Below are positions 1,110-24,414 of a stretch of DNA of 47,704 nucleotides, one piece after another. The stretch is taken from positions 1 to 47,704 of the forward strand of contig NZ_JAUSKL010000036.1 of the NCBI RefSeq assembly GCF_030646925.1, given 5' to 3'. The translations under genes and the position numbers were made by a program. The notes under the pieces are model-generated. The model was given only the letters and a program-made list of their open reading frames with translations, was not told where the DNA came from and searched no databases. The first letter of the stretch is position 1. Each line of letters starts with the position of its first letter. This stretch comes from Candidatus Binatus sp. GTDB taxonomy: Bacteria; Desulfobacterota; Binatia; Binatales; Binataceae.

Positions 1110-4100
1110 TCAGAACAGCTTCTGCAACTGATCGAGCGGGTTCGGCGGATTCTGCGGCTTTTGCTGCTGCCGATTGCGACCGCCACCGCCCTTGCGACCA
1201 GCGCCCGACGGAGGCGGCTGCCCCGCGTATCCGCCATACGGATCGCTCGGGGGCGTGCTGGCGTTCGATCCTGCCGGTGGCGCGCCCGCATAGCCCGGAT
1301 TGCTGTTCGGGCTCGCACCCGGAGCATAGCCCGGCGCGCCGCCGGGATTGCTCGTCCCCGATGTGTCGCTGGGCATTCCAAGCAAGCCGCCGATTGCTCC
1401 CGGCAATCCCTTCTTGCCGAATAAGCCGCCCGACGGCGCGGCCGGCGCAGGAGCACTGCCGTACGGTCCCGTCATCGGTGCACTTCCCATCGGCGCGCCG
1501 CCGGTACTGCCGCCCGACGTATCGCCCGATCCGCCGCCGAGCAATCCGCCTATCAGTCCGCCGGCCGCTCCTCCCGGCATGCCCTTCTTGCCGAGCACTT
1601 TGCCGAGATACTTCTCGCCCTGGTTCTGCGCTTCATGCATCGCGGCGCGCTGCGCGAGTTCGGACACGTTGGGCAGCACCGACGGCTTGGGCAACTGGCC
1701 GCTAATCTGCACCGGGAAATCGACCTGTCCCTGGGTGTTCACGATATACGCGACGTTTTTATTCTGTTGCACCAGTTCGCGGCTGAACGGCTGCGAGAGC
1801 ACCATCCGCACCGCGAGATCGATATTGCGATCGAGGTCGAACCAGCCGTCGCCGAGCAGATTGTAATCGACCGTCTGCACCTTGATATCGTGCGAGGTAA
1901 TTCGCGGACCGGCGAGCACGTAGCTGAGGCTCGCATTCTGGATGTCCGTGTTCGGGTTGTTGAACAATTCCGGATGACGTTGGATCACGCCGAGCGGCAC
2001 CAGGTTGCCGACCACCGGCAGGTTCGTCAGCTTCTGCAGCGATTCGCCGCCGATATTGACGCCGATCAGTTTGCCGTTGACGACGTTGAGGCGCCCGTCG
2101 CCTTTGAACGTCGGCTTCATCTGATCGAATGGACCCGCCACCGCGGCGACATTCATGTTGCCGGTGAGCGTCCCGCGCACAATTCCCGCCGACTTCGATT
2201 TTTGCGCCGCGAGCATCTGCTGCAAATCGAGGTTCGTAAAATTCATCGCCGCTGAAAACGGCGCCGACGGCCCGAGCCGCGTCTCGCCGGTCGCCGATAT
2301 GTCGCCCGCGAATGCCTTCAGCCTGAGCGATTGCAGGCGCGCGCTCCCGTTGTTGGCAACCGCGACCATGTCGAGATTCTGGAACGGCACGTCGGCCAAA
2401 TTGCCGTCGAGGATCGACACTTTCGCGTCGCCGCGCAGCGTCTGCATCATGCGATCGCCGCTGGTGGCCGCGATTTTCGCCGAGCCGGTCATCATCCCGC
2501 GCGCAGTCTCGGCCATCTTGGATTTTTGCGCCGCGAGAATTTGCTGCAGATTGACATTCGAAAAGTTGACCGTCGCGGAAAACGGCGACGCCGTATCGAG
2601 AATCGCCTCGGCCGTCGCAGCAACGTTGCCGGAGAACGCCTTGACGTTGAGCGATTGCACGCGCGCGCGCTTGCCGTCGAGCGACGCGTTGAGGTTCAAA
2701 TTCTCGTACGCCACGCCCGAAAGATCGCCCGACGCCGACGTGACCTTGGAGTTCACCGAAAGTCCGCCGGGTTGCATCGCGACTCCGCCCGTCGCAGCGA
2801 GTTGATTCACCTGGTCCTCGGGCGGACGCGTCGGCACGAAATCCGCCAGATGAATCGATCCCGCGGTGAGATCGAAATTCGCGAGCAGCGGTTGAAGCTG
2901 CACGACGTGCGATTTGAGCGTCCCGTGCGCCGGCCCGAGGTTGAACGTCATCGGGCCAACGTCGGCGCTATTGCCCGCCAGCCGGATATTGCCGTTGAGT
3001 TTGCTGAGCGCCGGAAGTTTCGCGTCGGGCTGCGCGGCCGAAACGTCGGTCAGCGACACCGTGCCTTTGGCCGACGGCTTGCTGCCGATCATCGTGACGT
3101 CGGAATGAATCTCGGCCTTGCCGCCGAGATTGTATTTCGCGAGCACCGCCACCTGCTTGGCGATCGCGGGCTCCTCTTTGGGAAGCGCGGCGAGATCGAA
3201 GCTGTTGGTATCGATACGCGCCGACATCTGCCCGCCGCCGACGCGAATCCGGGTCGCCTTGAGATTGAGATCGCCGACCGCGAGCGTCACGTTGCCGTTT
3301 ACCGCGGGTTTGCCGTCCGCCAGCGCGACATCGGCGTGAATTTCGGTTTTGCCGCGCGGATCGTACTTCGCGAGATCGGGAATCATCTTCGCGAGCGCCG
3401 TCAGATCGAAATTATTGGTATCGATGCGCGCGGAAGTACTGCCGCCGCCAACCTTGATATTCGTCGCCTTCAAATCGAGGTCGCCGAGCGAAACGTTGGC
3501 GACTTTCACATCGATCGCCGAGCCAATCCGCGAACCTTCCGCATCGACCTTGAGCTTGATATCGGCGGGCTTGTTGAACGTGTTGCCGAACGTGATCTTC
3601 TCGTCGCTCAAATCGCTCGAGACCACGAATTTGAGCGATTCGATCGTGCCGTCGGCCTGCGCCTCCGCGCTGATCGGCTGAGGGATGACGAGTTTCGGCG
3701 GAATCGATTTCGCGATCAGCTGGATGGCGCGCAACTGGCTCAGCAGGATCGGTCCGACTTTGGCTTTCACCGAAAATGGAATCGCCGACACGTCCATCAC
3801 GCCGTTCTTCATCAGCGGGCCGAGCGTGCTGTCGATATCGAGATTCTGCTTGTCGGCAAACGCGGCCATCGTGAGCGCGACCGTGAACGGCGCGTTGAAG
3901 CCAAAATCCTTCACGCTCAGATCGATCGCGTTCAGCATCGCGGATTGCTTCGCGCCTTCCTGCTGATAAATCAGCGTGCCGTCGCGAATCGAGAAATTCT
4001 TCACGAACAGCGAGCCGAGCGGCGACGGCTTGGCGCGGAGCCGCTTTTCCTTCTCCGCGGCCTCGCGCGCGGCGTCGCCACCCTCGGGCTTCTTGCCGAC

Positions 4101-5663: not shown

Positions 5664-6620
5664 ATGTCCGTTCAGGATCTGTTTTCGAGGCGGAAGCGAC
5701 GTGCTGAACAAGCCGGGCAACCCGAAGTTTATCAGTATGACGCCCTACCGAACCCTCTCCGCATCCAGATAATCCACATTTGGCGCGCAGCAATTGGCCG
5801 CTATGCGAATCCTGATCCGTACGGTTGGCAGCCCGATCCGCCCAATAGCAATGATCTGTGGCACGAGATCGAATCCGTGTTGTCAAAAGAAAAAGGCGTA
5901 TTTCGGTTGGCGACCGGCGATAACTCTCTGGCGCGTTGTTCTAACTACTTGCTGGATGCACCGATCGAGGACGCATTAGATGTCATCGAATTGACGTTCC
6001 GAATCATTTGGAATTTCGCGAACTTAGATGACTATAAATGGCAATCCGAGGTGAGAAGTAGAGGTCTGAAGCAAGCTCCAGATGACGCCATTTCTGAACT
6101 GAATTATCGGTTTCGGGAGGCTCAACTCGGCTACCAGTTTGATAGCGGAAATATAATTCGAGTTGATAGTCAGTACTTACATAGCGAAGCTGTCAAGCCC
6201 GCACTTTCCCTGTTAGCTGATCCTCGATTCAAGGGACCACGTGAAGAGTTTCTGCACGCTCACGAATTGTACAGGACTGCCGGCAAGGACGAGCATCAAA
6301 AGCGCGAGGATGCCATTACGGGGTCGCTCAAAGCGTTCGAGAGCACCCTCAAAGTGATATGCGGCCTGAAGAAATGGCATTGCCCCGCGAATGCTACGGC
6401 CGCCCCTTTGATCAAGACCGTAATCGACAATGGTCTAATACCCCCGTTCTTGCAGACCTCAATGGAAGGGCTGGCAACCTTAAGGAATAAAATTGCCGCG
6501 CATGGTCGAGGCGAGCAGATGCGACAGGTCCCCTCGCACCTAGTCGCGTATGCCCTACATCTCGCGGCATCGAACATCGTCATGCTGGTCGAGGCTTTCA
6601 ATGGCGTGGGGCGTGTTTAA
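5664..6620 (+). CDS. AbiJ-NTD4/HEPN-type putative abortive-infection protein
   Basis: A 318-residue protein with a strong ribosome site (AGGAGGGG) before the ATG. The N-terminus (VQDLFSRRKRRAE) and the Trp-rich segment around residues 35-70 resemble the AbiJ N-terminal domain 4/STM4504-CBY_0614 family, recalled from memory. The C-terminal ~110 residues are helical and contain R274-N275-x4-H280 (LRNKIAAHG), the RNx4H signature of HEPN ribonucleases in toxins and anti-phage proteins. The gene is clearly less GC-rich than mutS2 and smr on its left and the atp genes on its right, which suggests transfer. It stands alone between a 179-bp gap and a terminator. The defence role is inferred. Confidence 0.6.
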   Translation: MSVQDLFSRRKRRAEQAGQPEVYQYDALPNPLRIQIIHIWRAAIGRYANPDPYGWQPDPPNSNDLWHEIESVLSKEKGVFRLATGDNSLARCSNYLLDAPIEDALDVIELTFRIIWNFANLDDYKWQSEVRSRGLKQAPDDAISELNYRFREAQLGYQFDSGNIIRVDSQYLHSEAVKPALSLLADPRFKGPREEFLHAHELYRTAGKDEHQKREDAITGSLKAFESTLKVICGLKKWHCPANATAAPLIKTVIDNGLIPPFLQTSMEGLATLRNKIAAHGRGEQMRQVPSHLVAYALHLAASNIVMLVEAFNGVGRV

Positions 6621-13277: not shown

Positions 13278-13338
13278 CCTCGCCCGTTATTTTACGGGAG
13301 AGGGAGCCCGCCGCTCTTGCGGCGGGTGGGTGAGGGTT
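13278..13338 (+). repeat. REP-like palindromic repeat, copy 1
   Basis: CCTCGCCCG (13278-13286) and CGGGAGAGG (13295-13303) form a stem around the 8-nt loop TTATTTTA. A second hairpin CCCGCCGC-TCTT-GCGGCGGG (13307-13326) and the tail GGGTGAGGGT follow. Copy 2 is the same unit in opposite orientation about 140 bp away, and a third copy at 21.3 kb is split by the transposon. It lies between the convergent dnaN and DUF4331 genes. Confidence 0.8.
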
Positions 13339-13473
13339 CTGGATCGCACGCTGGTTCGATGTTTAGAGATTCACGATCTTCATCGATTCTAGATAGCTCC
13401 GTGACATAAATGTCGTCCGCGCGGCGTGCTCCGGACGAAAATGCGAGCATCAGTGCGCTGCTCACGATCCTGC

Positions 13474-21264: not shown

Positions 21265-21378
21265 TGTCATTCTGAGGCGGAGTCTGCGGAGCCGAAGAAT
21301 CCCGGATCTTTTCTTCGCGCCGACTGCACCCTCACCGCCTCGGCGCTGCGCGCCTCATCTGCCTCTCCCGCAACAAAG
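21265..21378 (-). repeat. REP-like repeat copy 3, left part, with flanking inverted motif
   Basis: TGTCATTC (21265-21272) matches inverted GAATGACA at 24437-24444. Between them lies ACCCTCACC (21328-21336), a GGCGC/GCGCC hairpin (21342-21354) and CCTCTCCCG (21362-21370), followed by CAACAAAG (21371-21378). The other half of the hairpin, CGGGCGAGG, is at 24406-24414 beyond the transposon. Joined, they re-create the unit seen at 13.3-13.5 kb. Confidence 0.75.
21371..21378 (+). repeat. 8-bp target site duplication, left copy
   Basis: CAACAAAG, identical to 24398-24405. It directly abuts the GGGGAGTG inverted-repeat end of the transposon and coincides with the 8-nt loop of the interrupted REP-like hairpin. 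Confidence 0.9.
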
Positions 21379-21401
21379 GGGGAGTGTGTACTTAACGCAA
21401 T
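21379..21401 (+). repeat. Left terminal inverted repeat of the transposon
   Basis: Begins GGGGAGTGTGTACTT, then A (G at the matching place in the right end), then ACGCAAT. Similarity to the right end stops after 23 bases. Confidence 0.9.
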
Positions 21402-21432
21402 CTCTTTAATTCCCACATGCATACCGCATGCA

Positions 21433-21486
21433 TGCCAGCAGCTGGCACATAAGCTAGTTGCGGTTCGATTCCAGCGTGCCTATAAT
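21433..21486 (+). promoter_or_regulatory. Promoter and putative operator of the winged-helix gene
   Basis: TTGCGG (21458-21463), a 17-base spacer, then a perfect TATAAT (21481-21486). Ten bases upstream of the -35 is a perfect interrupted palindrome, TGCCAGC-A-GCTGGCA (21433-21447), overlapping a second palindrome GCATGCATGC (21426-21435). The palindromes are candidate binding sites for the encoded winged-helix protein. Confidence 0.65.
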
Positions 21487-21573
21487 CCAAACACGCTTAT
21501 TGCGCCGCATTCAATCGCGACTTGCGGCGGGACTATGTCCTTGGTAGAGTGGAGAGAGTCGGGGGTCAACTTT

Positions 21574-21969
21574 ATGGAAACTGCCGAAAGAGAACGCCTT
21601 ATTGCGCTTGTAGAGAAAGTTCTTCGACTGCGGGGGGAGCTGCGCGAAGCGGAGCGCGAGCTAGATCGATCGATGCCTCTAATCAGGGAAACGACAGTCC
21701 AGGAACGAAATGGGCAAGCGCAGCAGGCGCAAGTAGCTCAGACTGGATCGGGGAATTTGGTTGAACAAGTGATCGGCCTTTTGAATCGTAACCCGCATCG
21801 CGCGTTTTCTGCTGGCGATGTAGTGAAAGAACTTCACCTTCCATACGAACGCATGCATACGGTTCGTAGTACCCTCTGGGGAATAGCGAAGAAAGGGCGA
21901 ATTGTGAATTCAGCGCGAGGTAAATTTTGTGCGGCCAATTCTCAGCATGTAGAGAGCGAGGAGGCATAA
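21574..21969 (+). CDS. Transposon-borne coiled-coil/winged-helix protein
   Basis: Start chosen at the ATG at 21574, with GGGGG about 8 bases upstream; an in-frame ATG at 21535 is an alternative. The 131-residue product begins with an acidic/basic heptad-rich helix (residues ~1-35), has a Gln-rich linker, and ends in a winged-helix-like domain (AFSAGDVVKELHLPYERMHT...GRIVNSARGKFCA). Such small proteins act as DNA-binding regulators. It lies inside the transposon ends and upstream of the tRNA-like RNAs, so it may control them or the transposase. No named family was recognised. Confidence 0.65.
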   Translation: METAERERLIALVEKVLRLRGELREAERELDRSMPLIRETTVQERNGQAQQAQVAQTGSGNLVEQVIGLLNRNPHRAFSAGDVVKELHLPYERMHTVRSTLWGIAKKGRIVNSARGKFCAANSQHVESEEA

Positions 21970-21987
21970 GAGGAATAAGGAAAAAAC

Positions 21988-22028
21988 GACGGCTCAGACC
22001 GCATCTCTCAAGGACCGTCTGAGCCGTC
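21988..22028. terminator. 12-bp perfect inverted repeat between the winged-helix gene and the tRNA-like RNAs
   Basis: GACGGCTCAGAC (21988-21999) and GTCTGAGCCGTC (22017-22028) pair perfectly over a 17-nt loop. There is no U-run after it on the plus strand; AAAAAACGAC precedes it, so it would work better as a terminator of minus-strand transcription. It ends 10 bases before the first tRNA-like RNA and may instead be a processing signal. Confidence 0.6.
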
Positions 22029-22038
22029 AGAAAAGCGT

Positions 22039-22111
22039 GGGGCGGTTATGGTTTCTGCGGGTAGCCCTAGCCAAGCATGCCGCAGGGAGTTCGAATCTCC
22101 GCCGCTCCACC
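22039..22111 (+). ncRNA. Minimal tmRNA-like tRNA domain (alanine-type acceptor stem)
   Basis: GGGGCGG (22039-22045) pairs over 7 bp with CCGCTCC (22102-22108), with a G-T wobble at the third pair, followed by A at the discriminator and CC. A canonical T-loop TTCGAAT sits at 22090-22096 on a GGAG/CTCC stem. There is no D-stem; after the acceptor comes ATGGTTTC, matching the start of tmRNA (consensus TGGTTTCGAC). A 6-bp stem CTGCGG/CCGCAG then encloses a 19-nt loop containing AAGCATG, also found in tmRNA near its 3' domain. The whole resembles a tmRNA tRNA-like domain with the pseudoknots and tag frame deleted. G3-U70 and A73 are the alanyl-tRNA synthetase determinants. Confidence 0.65.
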
Positions 22112-22119
22112 GGAACAAC

Positions 22120-22217
22120 CGGAGCGTGGCGAAATAGCAGACGCGCTGGCCTTGGGAGCCAGTGGGCAGTAACCGTTTAGCGCGGTGCCCGTGCGGGTGC
22201 AAATCCCGTCGCTCCGA
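22120..22217 (+). tRNA. Class II tRNA-like RNA with proline (UGG) anticodon loop
   Basis: A 98-nt cloverleaf folds by eye. The acceptor CGGAGCG/CGCTCCG is a perfect 7-bp pair, with a 3-bp D stem GCG/CGC and an anticodon stem CTGGC/GCCAG around loop CTTGGGA (anticodon TGG). A 30-nt variable arm has nested stems GGGCA/TGCCC and CCG/CGG, and the T stem is GCGGG/CCCGT. The discriminator is A; CCA is not encoded. The body resembles tRNA-Leu, but C1-G72, A73 and the UGG loop are tRNA-Pro identity features. Oddities: the D-loop has AG where G18-G19 is expected, and the T-loop reads TGCAAAT, with G at the universal U55. It may be an allo-tRNA, a non-decoding mimic or a decaying gene. Confidence 0.6.
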
Positions 22218-22220
22218 CAC

Positions 22221-22292
22221 TTGCTACATCTAGCAAATCTTTCTATATGTAGCAACATAATATTTGACTCAAGTATCGAATTATGAGATAGT
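22221..22292 (+). promoter_or_regulatory. Inverted repeat and promoter of the transposase
   Basis: TTGCTACAT (22221-22229) and ATGTAGCAA (22247-22255) form a 9-bp inverted repeat directly after the second RNA, possibly its 3' end or an operator. TTGACT (22264-22269), a 17-base spacer and GATAGT (22287-22292) make a plausible promoter. The transposase ATG at 22299 would coincide with the expected transcription start, giving a leaderless message; no ribosome site is visible. Confidence 0.5.
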
Positions 22293-22298
22293 CTTGTC

Positions 22299-23294
22299 AT
22301 GGCAAGGAATCAAGGCTCAGTCGCTCAGGCGAAGTCGGAGATCGTTCGGCAGTTACCACGCGCTTGCGCCGATGAAACTTTGGCTGTCGAGTTTCTTGAA
22401 GAACAGCGTTGGTCGGAAATGGGCGCATGCTGCCCGCATTGCGGTGATACCGACGTTTACAAGATGAAGGATCGCAAGACGGCGGAGCGGAACAAGCGGT
22501 TCCTGTGGCTCTGCAATGGCTGTAGAAAACAATATACCGTGCGCGTCGGCACGGTATTCGAGGACAGCCGAATCCCGCTTCGCCATTGGTGTTACGGATT
22601 TTGGGCCGCAGCCGCGAGCAAGAAGGGAATTAGCTCAAAACAGATCCAGCGCATGACGGGACTCTCGTACAAATCCGCGCTGTTTATGATGCACCGAATT
22701 CGATTCGCGATGACGCCAGACTTGAAGACCGCGCGGAAATTGACGGGAACAATCGAAGCTGACGAAACCTATATCGGTGGCCAAGCGAAGAATCGCCACG
22801 CCAGCGCATTGAAACAGCGCCGGGGCGGATGGGACAAGGCAACGGTGATTGCGATGGTCGAGCGTGGCGGGAACATCCGTTCTTGGCATGTTCCTGATGT
22901 GAATATGCACAATGTTGGCGCGATCATTCGGGCAAACGTAAATCCATCAGCATCGACTCTGATGACGGATGAAACTTCGCTCTATCGCACAGTGGGGCCA
23001 GAATTCGCAGGCGGCCATCACTCCGTCAGCCATCGGAAAAAGGAATATGTACGCGGGCACGTTACAACCAACAGCATCGAAAGCGCGTTCTCGCTTTTGA
23101 AGCGCGGTCTTTACGGCACCTTCCACAGCGTCAGCCGAAAGCACCTGCATCGCTATTTGGGAGAGTTCGATTTTCGCTACAACGCGCGTAAGATCGAGGA
23201 TGGCGAGCGGGCCGCGATGGCAATCCGAAGCGCCAACGGGAAGCGTCTGACCTATGCCGAACAAATCGGACAAACCGAAACCAAAACCGCGTAA
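22299..23294 (+). CDS. IS1595-family (ISXO2-like) transposase
   Basis: A 331-residue protein with an N-terminal zinc ribbon (C45-P-H-C48 and C72-N-G-C75), a helical DNA-binding region (SSKQIQRMTGLSYKSALFMMHRIR), and an ISXO2-type catalytic domain. Candidate acidic residues are Asp155 in IEADETYIGG, Asp224 in LMTDETSLY, and the Asn258/Glu261 pair in VTTNSIESAFSLLKR. Full length and an undamaged frame suggest activity. Start is the only ATG near the promoter and has no Shine-Dalgarno. It cuts and pastes the element through the GGGGAGTG ends. Confidence 0.93.
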   Translation: MARNQGSVAQAKSEIVRQLPRACADETLAVEFLEEQRWSEMGACCPHCGDTDVYKMKDRKTAERNKRFLWLCNGCRKQYTVRVGTVFEDSRIPLRHWCYGFWAAAASKKGISSKQIQRMTGLSYKSALFMMHRIRFAMTPDLKTARKLTGTIEADETYIGGQAKNRHASALKQRRGGWDKATVIAMVERGGNIRSWHVPDVNMHNVGAIIRANVNPSASTLMTDETSLYRTVGPEFAGGHHSVSHRKKEYVRGHVTTNSIESAFSLLKRGLYGTFHSVSRKHLHRYLGEFDFRYNARKIEDGERAAMAIRSANGKRLTYAEQIGQTETKTA

Positions 23295-23406
23295 GACTCC
23301 GGGGCCAAAGCCCGAAGTCTTGAAAATCGAGGGCGACTGGAAAAACGCAATGAAAAAGGCGCTCAAGAAAAAGCGCCCGGATGCAGGGTGGCCGAAGCCA
23401 GATTAA
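23254..23406 (+). CDS. Small basic protein overlapping the transposase 3' end
   Basis: A 50-residue frame starting at an ATG inside the last codons of the transposase in another frame. The product is Lys/Pro-rich (MPNKSDKPKPKPRKTPGPKP) and ends with EGDWKNAMKKALKKKRP and GWPKPD. From memory, similar small frames with a GDWK...KKAL...GWPK core follow IS1595-type transposases, which supports a real gene coupled to the transposase; the role is unknown. Its last bases overlap the end of the convergent toxin-like gene. Confidence 0.6.
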   Translation: MPNKSDKPKPKPRKTPGPKPEVLKIEGDWKNAMKKALKKKRPDAGWPKPD

Positions 23407-23819
23407 TCGTGGTCGTAAAGCGAGAAATCGTGATCGAGCCACAAAACATGAAACACCTGGCCATCACGGTAGCCCACCATCGGAGCTTTTCCGGAAAAGC
23501 GGAATGCAATTAGGTTGACGTCCTCGGTGACGCTGGATGGCAACGATTGCCTGACTTGAGAGGGTTCTATCTTCTCAAATCCCATACCGTGTCGAGGAGC
23601 ACATTTCAGTTGCGCCCAAGTTAGTCGAGAACGCTCCAAGAGAGCGCGCGCGAATTGGGCCTGATCACTTTGCTGGCAACTCGGCAAGCAATATCGCCCA
23701 TCGTTCATTTGATGTAGGGCAAAGATAGGTGGAAGCTGATCGGTGGAAACGCTCGGTTGCTGCTGCCCTTTGATGTGCTTGCTGGTATCTTCGCGGGGGC
23801 GTTTGAATTTGCTGCTCAC
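23403..23819 (-). CDS. Putative toxin partner of the Panacea antitoxin
   Basis: A 138-residue protein whose start overlaps the stop of the Panacea gene by 4 bases (23816-23819), a sign of translational coupling. The first ~30 residues are polar. A segment around RYCLPSCQQSDQAQFARALLERS follows, and the C-terminus is compact (FSGKAPMVGYRDGQVFHVLWLDHDFSLYDHD). I do not recognise a named fold. The VFHVLWLD ending looks like a short single-domain protein of the kind paired with antitoxins. The toxin role is inferred from gene order and coupling. Confidence 0.55.
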   Translation of the reverse strand: MSSKFKRPREDTSKHIKGQQQPSVSTDQLPPIFALHQMNDGRYCLPSCQQSDQAQFARALLERSRLTWAQLKCAPRHGMGFEKIEPSQVRQSLPSSVTEDVNLIAFRFSGKAPMVGYRDGQVFHVLWLDHDFSLYDHD

Positions 23820-24259
23820 TTTTCAACGAGCGTGAGAAAAAAATCCATCAAACTATCTTCGGTAATCAGCCTATCCGATCTCGTTCGTCCTTGCTTCCAA
23901 GGCGTTTCTTCGTGAGTCATGTTCCTGAGCTTCCAAGCGGAATACTGGCCGTAGACGCTCCACACTTCGTCAAGCAGGTCGCGATCCGCAGGACTTATCT
24001 GCGAAGAATCGTAATCTTCCGGTACGGGGATGCCTGCGGCACCATAGTGGGAGTATTCGCGATACACCTTGGGAACTACTGGGCCATGAACCCAAGCCTC
24101 AATTGGCTCGTTGAAGATCGAGCGTTCGTTTATCGCGAGGCTAAATCCCTGAGCGTAGTAAAGAAGCTTCTGGAGCTTCATATTAGTCACAAGTTCACCC
24201 GCGTTGTCTGGATCAGAGAACGTCAGAATGTACTTGGCTATTAAACTGGCGGGATACAT
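23816..24259 (-). CDS. Panacea-domain (DUF4065/SocA-like) antitoxin
   Basis: A 147-residue protein covering a full Panacea/DUF4065 domain: SLIAKYILTFSDPDNAGELV, the core MKLQKLLYYAQGFSLA, EAWVHGPVVPKVYREY and a C-terminal helix. Panacea proteins are widespread antitoxins that neutralise many unrelated toxins (PanAT systems); SocA in Caulobacter is a proteolytic adaptor. It is first in a two-gene operon with the toxin-like gene. Lying inside the transposon ends, the pair could stabilise the element. Only a weak ribosome site (GAGG about 10 bases upstream) is seen. Confidence 0.82.
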   Translation of the reverse strand: MYPASLIAKYILTFSDPDNAGELVTNMKLQKLLYYAQGFSLAINERSIFNEPIEAWVHGPVVPKVYREYSHYGAAGIPVPEDYDSSQISPADRDLLDEVWSVYGQYSAWKLRNMTHEETPWKQGRTRSDRLITEDSLMDFFLTLVEK

Positions 24260-24374
24260 TGCGGGGCAGACCTCGAAACTTTGCCGTCGTTAACCGCCGC
24301 CTGCCCCTCCACACATCTCAATACCGACTTACTTATGCTAAGCGAATTAAAAGCGCAAGGTTCATCCTACACTA

Positions 24375-24397
24375 ATTGCGTCAAGTACACACTCCCC
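24375..24397 (-). repeat. Right terminal inverted repeat of the transposon
   Basis: Reads, on the minus strand, GGGGAGTGTGTACTT then G then ACGCAAT, differing from the left end at one base. Confidence 0.9.
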
Positions 24398-24414
24398 CAA
24401 CAAAGCGGGCGAGG
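24398..24414 (-). repeat. Right target duplication and remainder of REP-like copy 3
   Basis: CAACAAAG (24398-24405), the second copy of the 8-bp duplication, is followed at once by CGGGCGAGG (24406-24414), the missing arm of the hairpin whose other arm CCTCTCCCG is at 21362-21370. Confidence 0.88.

Follow-up and report, generated by a model that had tools for sequence, protein, structure and literature searches.

A tRNA-like RNA with alanine identity elements in an IS1595-family transposon of Candidatus Binatus, beside a leucine-type tRNA with anticodon UGG

Background

Among bacteria, mistranslation that is genetically encoded has been described for a small tRNA family of actinomycetes (PMC11415595). 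The nearest known system to the RNAs reported here is tRNA-ProX of Streptomyces and Kitasatospora, in which tRNAs with a Pro body carry anticodons for Ala, Asn or Thr and are encoded beside a special ProRS (PMC11415595, PMC10365949). Both systems join the body of one amino acid to the anticodon of another, and an unusual residue 33, a feature of tRNA-ProX, occurs here in 7/30 long tRNAs. In contrast, the bodies are here of Leu, Ala and Ser type, the anticodons are those for Pro, Ala or stop, the genes lie inside a transposon, and no synthetase was noticed in the element of the window, i.e. of the whole 47,704-nucleotide stretch of DNA analysed. Departures from the cloverleaf are shared with allo-tRNAs and D-arm-less mitochondrial tRNAs (PMC7609411), but no mobile alanine-identity mini tRNA is described in the passages of that source consulted here.

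A further comparison concerns tmRNA (ssrA). It has in common with the 73-nucleotide segment under study an acceptor with G3-U70, A73, a T-arm and the GG-UUUC that follows the acceptor. The segment differs in the missing message part, pseudoknots and tag and in a changed GA after GGUUUC, and three of its four sibling RNAs fold with a D-like hairpin.

A target duplication of 8 bp is usual for the IS1595 family of insertion sequences. Like members of the family, the element described here has this duplication, inverted repeats and a transposase that contains a zinc ribbon and a DDE domain; it differs from them in its RNA cargo. Among the matches listed from open-licence literature (titles and abstract starts), no description of tRNA cargo in IS1595 or in other insertion sequences or transposons was found.

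Results

The transposon and its genes

The segment lies in an intact transposon (Table 1), as the earlier note had proposed: inverted repeats at 21379-21402 and 24374-24397 (22/24 identical) and an exact 8-bp target duplication, CAACAAAG, at 21371-21378 and 24398-24405 enclose it. Membership of the transposase in IS1595 is indicated by PF12762 (2.2e-36) and NF033547 (180.9 bits, cut-off 75). The order within the element is 131-aa ORF, hairpin, segment, class II tRNA, transposase and 50-aa protein, followed on the opposite strand by the Panacea/SocA gene with its partner.

Table 1. Features of the transposon in the window
Feature	Position	Strand	Basis
IS1595-family transposon, 3,019 bp, intact	21379-24397		End repeats and target duplication
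131-aa ORF without a match in Pfam or NCBIfam	21574-21969	+	Profile searches
12-bp hairpin preceding the RNA genes, formed by 21988-21999 with 22017-22028	21988-22028	+	Sequence and fold
Alanine-identity tRNA-like RNA (G3-U70, A73), the segment under study	22039-22109	+	Sequence, Rfam, covariation
Class II tRNA, leucine-type body, anticodon UGG	22120-22217	+	Rfam tRNA, 49 bits
IS1595-family transposase, 331 aa, open frame	22299-23294	+	Pfam, NCBIfam
50-aa basic protein beside the transposase	23254-23406	+	Recurring small ORF
138-aa protein, overlapping the next gene by 4 bases	23403-23819	-	Sub-threshold matches
SocA/Panacea-domain protein	23816-24259	-	Pfam, 87.2 bits

In relative L012, the ORF that takes the place of the 131-aa frame (991-1422) shows winged-helix matches slightly below the Pfam cut-offs. 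Small ORFs resembling the 50-aa protein are present in up to 26/33 elements compared, an upper bound because a longer ORF of L031 was joined to the same single-linkage cluster. The 138-aa protein reaches only sub-threshold scores with the MAG6450 family (23 bits, cut-off 40) and with PADLOC NsnC (28.9 bits), and the SocA/Panacea-domain protein scores above the Pfam cut-off and below that of NCBIfam SocA.

Anatomy and fold of the segment

The anatomy given in the earlier note is found in the sequence throughout. The segment (22039-22111) has the acceptor GGGGCGG/CCGCTCC with 7/7 positions paired and a single G-U at 3:70, followed by ATGGTTTC at 22048-22055. A perfect 6-bp hairpin is formed by arms at 22055-22060 and 22080-22085, AAGCATG is located at 22073-22079, and the T-loop reads TTCGAAT. 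A73 falls on 22109, where we set the end of the RNA; the earlier end at 22111 adds two C. G3-U70 together with A73, proposed in the note as an alanine identity set, is present here and in the recurring RNAs described below, and the acceptor is identical to that of the host's own tRNA-Ala(UGC).

The T-stem comprises four pairs, with G-G at the outermost position, and no D-stem appears among the best folds. Folding is mildly better than that of shuffled sequences (z -1.5; 14/200 shuffles equally good). Read in the manner of the sibling RNAs, the central arm would give GCC, a reading that is unreliable with an arm that differs from theirs.

The segment is a single-copy feature of its genome. A DNA search of plasmids and phages gave no match at E 0.01, and in the DNA of 145 relatives only the last 27 nt of the segment were matched, a stretch common in tRNAs, with no second copy. 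It is absent from the tRNA-model matches of the whole genome at E 10 and by this measure is no canonical cloverleaf. ARAGORN with default settings finds neither the segment nor the neighbouring tRNA, and no tmRNA there; with -ps30 it makes two low-threshold tmRNA calls at the segment, with other ends.

Comparison with tmRNA

The earlier note had described the segment as the tRNA-like domain of a tmRNA without mRNA part and had proposed a search with tmRNA models. Searched alone against Rfam, the segment indeed has tmRNA as its best model, at 31.3 bits, but this is below the gathering cut-off of 47, and the same model gives scores of 32.6 and 30.3 bits to two tRNA-Ala genes of the host that are ordinary tRNAs. 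A score of 31 bits is therefore not specific, and we rejected it as proof of a tmRNA; it mostly reflects the G3-U70 acceptor and the T-arm. Within 421 nt of context the model gives 8.5 bits with a different alignment, and the segment is absent from the matches of a genome-wide search with the tmRNA model. In the model alignment 19 nt of the segment replace 318 model positions, without tag reading frame or pseudoknots.

A tmRNA matrix was built from 31 tmRNAs of the window's phylum (30 for the random-sequence test). Positions 8-20 of the segment score 1.0 on it, compared with -9.3 for the best host tRNA, and 29/31 tmRNAs score higher; a random sequence matches the score with p 0.0025. The 3' part is not tmRNA-like (-4.6), and UG stands where the phylum tmRNAs have GA after GGUUUC. 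The description as a tmRNA domain thus holds for the 5' part and for the lack of a message part, and fails for the 3' part.

In the last 25 nt, the segment agrees with the phylum tmRNA consensus at 17/25 positions, two long cargo tRNAs at 22/25 and one host tRNA-Leu at 21/25. The sibling RNA of locus L123 equals the consensus at 25/25 positions and in the acceptor. On these comparisons, descent of alanine-type RNA from tmRNA is plausible for L123 (25/25 plus acceptor) and may or may not extend to the segment (17/25 and an acceptor identical to tRNA-Ala(UGC)). A random degraded piece of host ssrA, named in the note as an alternative origin, could be dismissed because the host possesses a full-length tmRNA of different sequence.

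The neighbouring tRNA and the host tRNA set

Directly downstream of the segment lies a tRNA that the earlier note does not mention. It has the loop CTTGGGA with anticodon UGG, for proline codons, and A73, and at its Rfam score (Table 1) it is a canonical tRNA. The segment adjoins this leucine-type tRNA in a slot where relatives carry tRNAs, so that the description as a stand-alone RNA does not hold. The tRNA set of the host covers all 20 amino acids and contains tRNA-Pro with UGG, GGG and CGG as well as five tRNA-Leu; cargo tRNAs therefore fill no decoding gap.

Survey of related elements

A search of genome contigs with three transposases yielded 21 loci, and one of viral contigs two loci. 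Transposase relatives are present in 12/395 genomes of the window's phylum (E 1e-60), 5/41 of its family (1e-100), 9/392 of the phylum of a Phycisphaera MAG (1e-110), 11/397 of the class of a Phycisphaerales MAG (1e-110; partly the same genomes as in the Phycisphaera phylum set) and 7/396 of the phylum of an Edaphobacter MAG (1e-90). With wider flanks, 50 distinct loci with a related transposase were scanned. This set excludes L051, at 24% identity, as well as L188, L189 and L190, which are repeats.

Cargo of tRNA-like type occurs in 33/50 loci and comprises 30 long tRNAs and five alanine-type RNAs, both kinds being found together in the window and in L123. In 24/33 cargo loci the RNA is enclosed by end repeats that match at 18/24 positions or better, with an exact 8-bp duplication. 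Cargo-bearing loci are assigned to Deltaproteobacteria, Planctomycetota/Phycisphaerales, Candidatus Binatia and Terriglobia MAGs and to two viral contigs. The other 17/50 loci (L041, L042, L046, L047, L048, L050, L124, L125, L128, L130-L133, L179, L185, L186 and L187), some of which end at contig ends, are without cargo. The 41 genomes of the window's family contain six transposase copies that reach E 1e-100, spread over five genomes, and a UGG tRNA stands beside 6/6 of them.

Further IS1595 relatives in the phylum comprise 27 loci (L054-L080), scanned by ARAGORN with flanks of up to 1.5 kb. Four close loci (L054, L055, L056 and L066) yield a tRNA-Pro, and the single tRNA called at L059 is implausible, having an insert of 534 nt; in these flanks ARAGORN finds no tRNA at the other 22.

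Long cargo tRNAs

Read in a common alignment register, the anticodons of the 30 long tRNAs are 22 UGG, six UGC, one GGG and one UUA, that is 23 for Pro, six for Ala and one for stop. None of the 30, the tRNA of the window included, has a Leu anticodon, and yet the nearest tRNA in a crude scoring is tRNA-Leu for 25, followed by Arg (3) and Ser (2), with Pro for none. ARAGORN with introns allowed misreads the anticodons of the tRNAs in the window, L032, L045 and L122. The anticodon of L044 is GGG in the alignment register versus CGG in ARAGORN, and an anticodon CAG (Leu) considered for L126 was rejected, ARAGORN and the common register agreeing on TGC.

N73 is A in 29/30; the exception is L184, a serine-type tRNA with G73 and anticodon UGG at 3002-3086 (+) of a more distant IS1595 element. 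Position 3:70 is Watson-Crick in 30/30, and the tRNA of L178 is without long variable arm. The stems are paired in 99.2% of 595 cells, 19/20 pairs show changes on both sides, and covariation is 0.870, compared with 0.205 in shuffles and at most 0.186 in a slid register. Because pairing and covariation are kept, these are not decayed captured tRNAs. L123 contains, at 6097-6181 (-) and 3 nt before its alanine-type RNA, a leucine-type tRNA with anticodon UUA, which reads the stop codon UAA.

Alanine-type RNAs in other elements

A scan of 34 loci that required only a T-arm and a paired acceptor detected, besides the segment, similar RNAs in L037, L043 and L123, all four with G3-U70 and A73; it also gave the long tRNAs and five other matches, with 2-6 in shuffles. 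L036 had matched in another register and was placed by a second scan that demanded G3-U70 and A73, and so is no independent support for these two features. The five alanine-type RNAs (window, L036, L037, L043 and L123) are 69-71 nt long with G3-U70 and A73 in 5/5. Element ends were not found for L037.

Recurrence and compensating changes in homologous elements, which the earlier note had named as a test, are both observed. Pairs 4:69 to 7:66 change together around the invariant G3-U70, and covariation in acceptor and T-stem is 0.517 (five sequences only), compared with 0.161 for shuffles and no more than 0.160 for slid registers. A MAFFT alignment of the five misplaced the 5' ends and was kept out of the counts. 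Rfam best models, all below cut-off, are tmRNA for L037 (32.5 bits) and L123 (31.9 bits; also numbered L099) and tRNA-Sec for L036 and L043. At positions 8-20 the four siblings score -20 to -32 on the tmRNA matrix, no better than tRNAs.

A 4-bp D-like hairpin with UGGU or CGGU loop is present in L036, L043 and L123. We read the central arm as UGG in L036, L037 and L043 and as UGC in L123; these anticodons are our inference rather than lowest-energy folds. For L036, L043 and L123 it takes a suboptimal fold to place them in a loop, and no listed fold of L037 does so. The sibling central arms, longer than a normal anticodon arm, may be unable to reach the codon.

Upstream hairpins and leader ORFs

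Hairpins and leaders were counted in 32/33 cargo loci, L045 being left out at a contig edge. Median folding energy is -23.9 kcal/mol for the 60 nt that precede the RNA genes, versus -10.6 downstream; the upstream z is below -2 in 19/32 and not better than -2 in 13/32. In 9/32 there is a short upstream ORF that combines a proline run (PPP, PPxP or PxPP) with a ribosome-binding-like sequence, where 0.94 are expected from shuffles; the pattern was picked after examples had been seen, and some of the nine cases are close relatives. The window element has no proline-run ORF upstream of its RNA genes. Hairpin and, in some relatives, proline-run ORF together suggest conditional expression. PPP short ORFs (such as MPPPER and LARPPP) are located upstream of a tRNA reading proline codons in L031, L032, L035, L040, L134, L135 and L180; they are possibly an attenuator or stall sensor.

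Discussion

On balance, the segment seems to belong to a wider group of mobile, identity-swapped tRNAs, of which the window copy is possibly imperfect. To the reading that it is the alanine-type member of the tRNA cargo of IS1595 transposons, and that this cargo consists of mobile mistranslating tRNAs, we give a probability slightly above one half (about 0.53). Cargo identity (Leu, Ala, once Ser) would be mismatched to the anticodon, mostly UGG for Pro, with UGC for Ala on Leu-type bodies and once UUA for stop. The recognisable cargo identities are those three, and synthetases for Leu, Ala and Ser largely ignore the anticodon. If transcribed, the segment would be charged by host AlaRS through G3-U70 and A73, and the adjacent tRNA by host LeuRS, which would recognise its A73, its D-arm and its long variable arm; with the latter tRNA, proline codons would then be read as leucine. 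In alanine-type RNAs the loop of the central arm would set the codon at which alanine is inserted, and the identity-swapped tRNAs as a whole would lead to the incorporation of Leu, Ala or Ser where the message has a codon for proline, alanine or stop.

The earlier note had suggested competition with tmRNA/SmpB. In this form an Ala-charged tRNA-like domain would compete for SmpB, AlaRS or EF-Tu, or rescue stalled ribosomes, and tmRNA is the best Rfam model for 3/5 alanine-type copies (31.3, 32.5 and 31.9 bits), positions 8-20 of the segment are closer to tmRNA than those of host tRNAs, and L123 carries the tmRNA consensus in 3' end and acceptor. However, host tRNA-Ala genes equal the model score, common tRNA 3' ends also reach 21-22/25, UG replaces GA after GGUUUC in the segment, and the siblings score -20 to -32 in the very region in which the segment is tmRNA-like. 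We regard such a mimic as unlikely and favour tRNA-like decoding over competition with tmRNA/SmpB, because the segment stands beside a tRNA, in a slot shared with true tRNAs, and 3/4 siblings have D-like hairpins.

The window copy in particular could be decaying, lacking a D-stem in its best folds and a certain anticodon and showing G-G in the T-stem. That the segment is a degenerate alanine-type copy, now functionless, would also fit its absence from the genome-wide tRNA-model matches at E 10 and its single copy, but it seems doubtful with an acceptor fully paired, identity elements kept, element ends intact and the transposase frame open. Another use of the cargo would be as decoys, baiting host or toxin enzymes that cleave or modify tRNAs. 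The UGG loop common to 22/30 long tRNAs and the antitoxin-like Panacea-type gene with its partner in the window element agree with such bait, which nevertheless does not account for why no body is nearest tRNA-Pro, and UGC and UUA versions exist; we hold it to be very improbable.

The mobile mistranslating tRNAs preferred here may be extended, in a version that is speculative and as a whole rather doubtful, to a widespread family that spreads a conditionally expressed decoding set: Pro, Ala and stop anticodons would be grafted onto the three anticodon-ignoring identities, a tmRNA domain would in some copies have turned back into a decoding alanine tRNA, and proline-run leaders would switch the set on when proline decoding fails. 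If mobile mistranslation is true, codon ambiguity would be a horizontally transferred trait across distant bacterial groups, with tRNA cargo kept mismatched by selection. Aminoacylation rules could then be tested on dozens of constructs supplied by nature, and the alanine members that resemble tmRNA would connect the evolution of tmRNA with that of tRNA.

Other tRNA-like sequences

A tRNA-like sequence in L033 (3175-3249) was considered as alanine type and rejected, having T73 and no G3-U70; it is a different tRNA-like (ARAGORN anticodon CGC), located between hairpin and UGG tRNA, the place of the segment in the window. An ARAGORN tRNA-Arg at 13285-13376 of the window has no Rfam match and is probably false. 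Ordinary tRNAs in L035 (98-184) and L042 (3255-3327) lie outside the element repeats. The viral contigs L052 (2009-2093, -) and L053 (423-506, -) each contain a class II tRNA with anticodon UGC, accompanied by the same kind of transposase.
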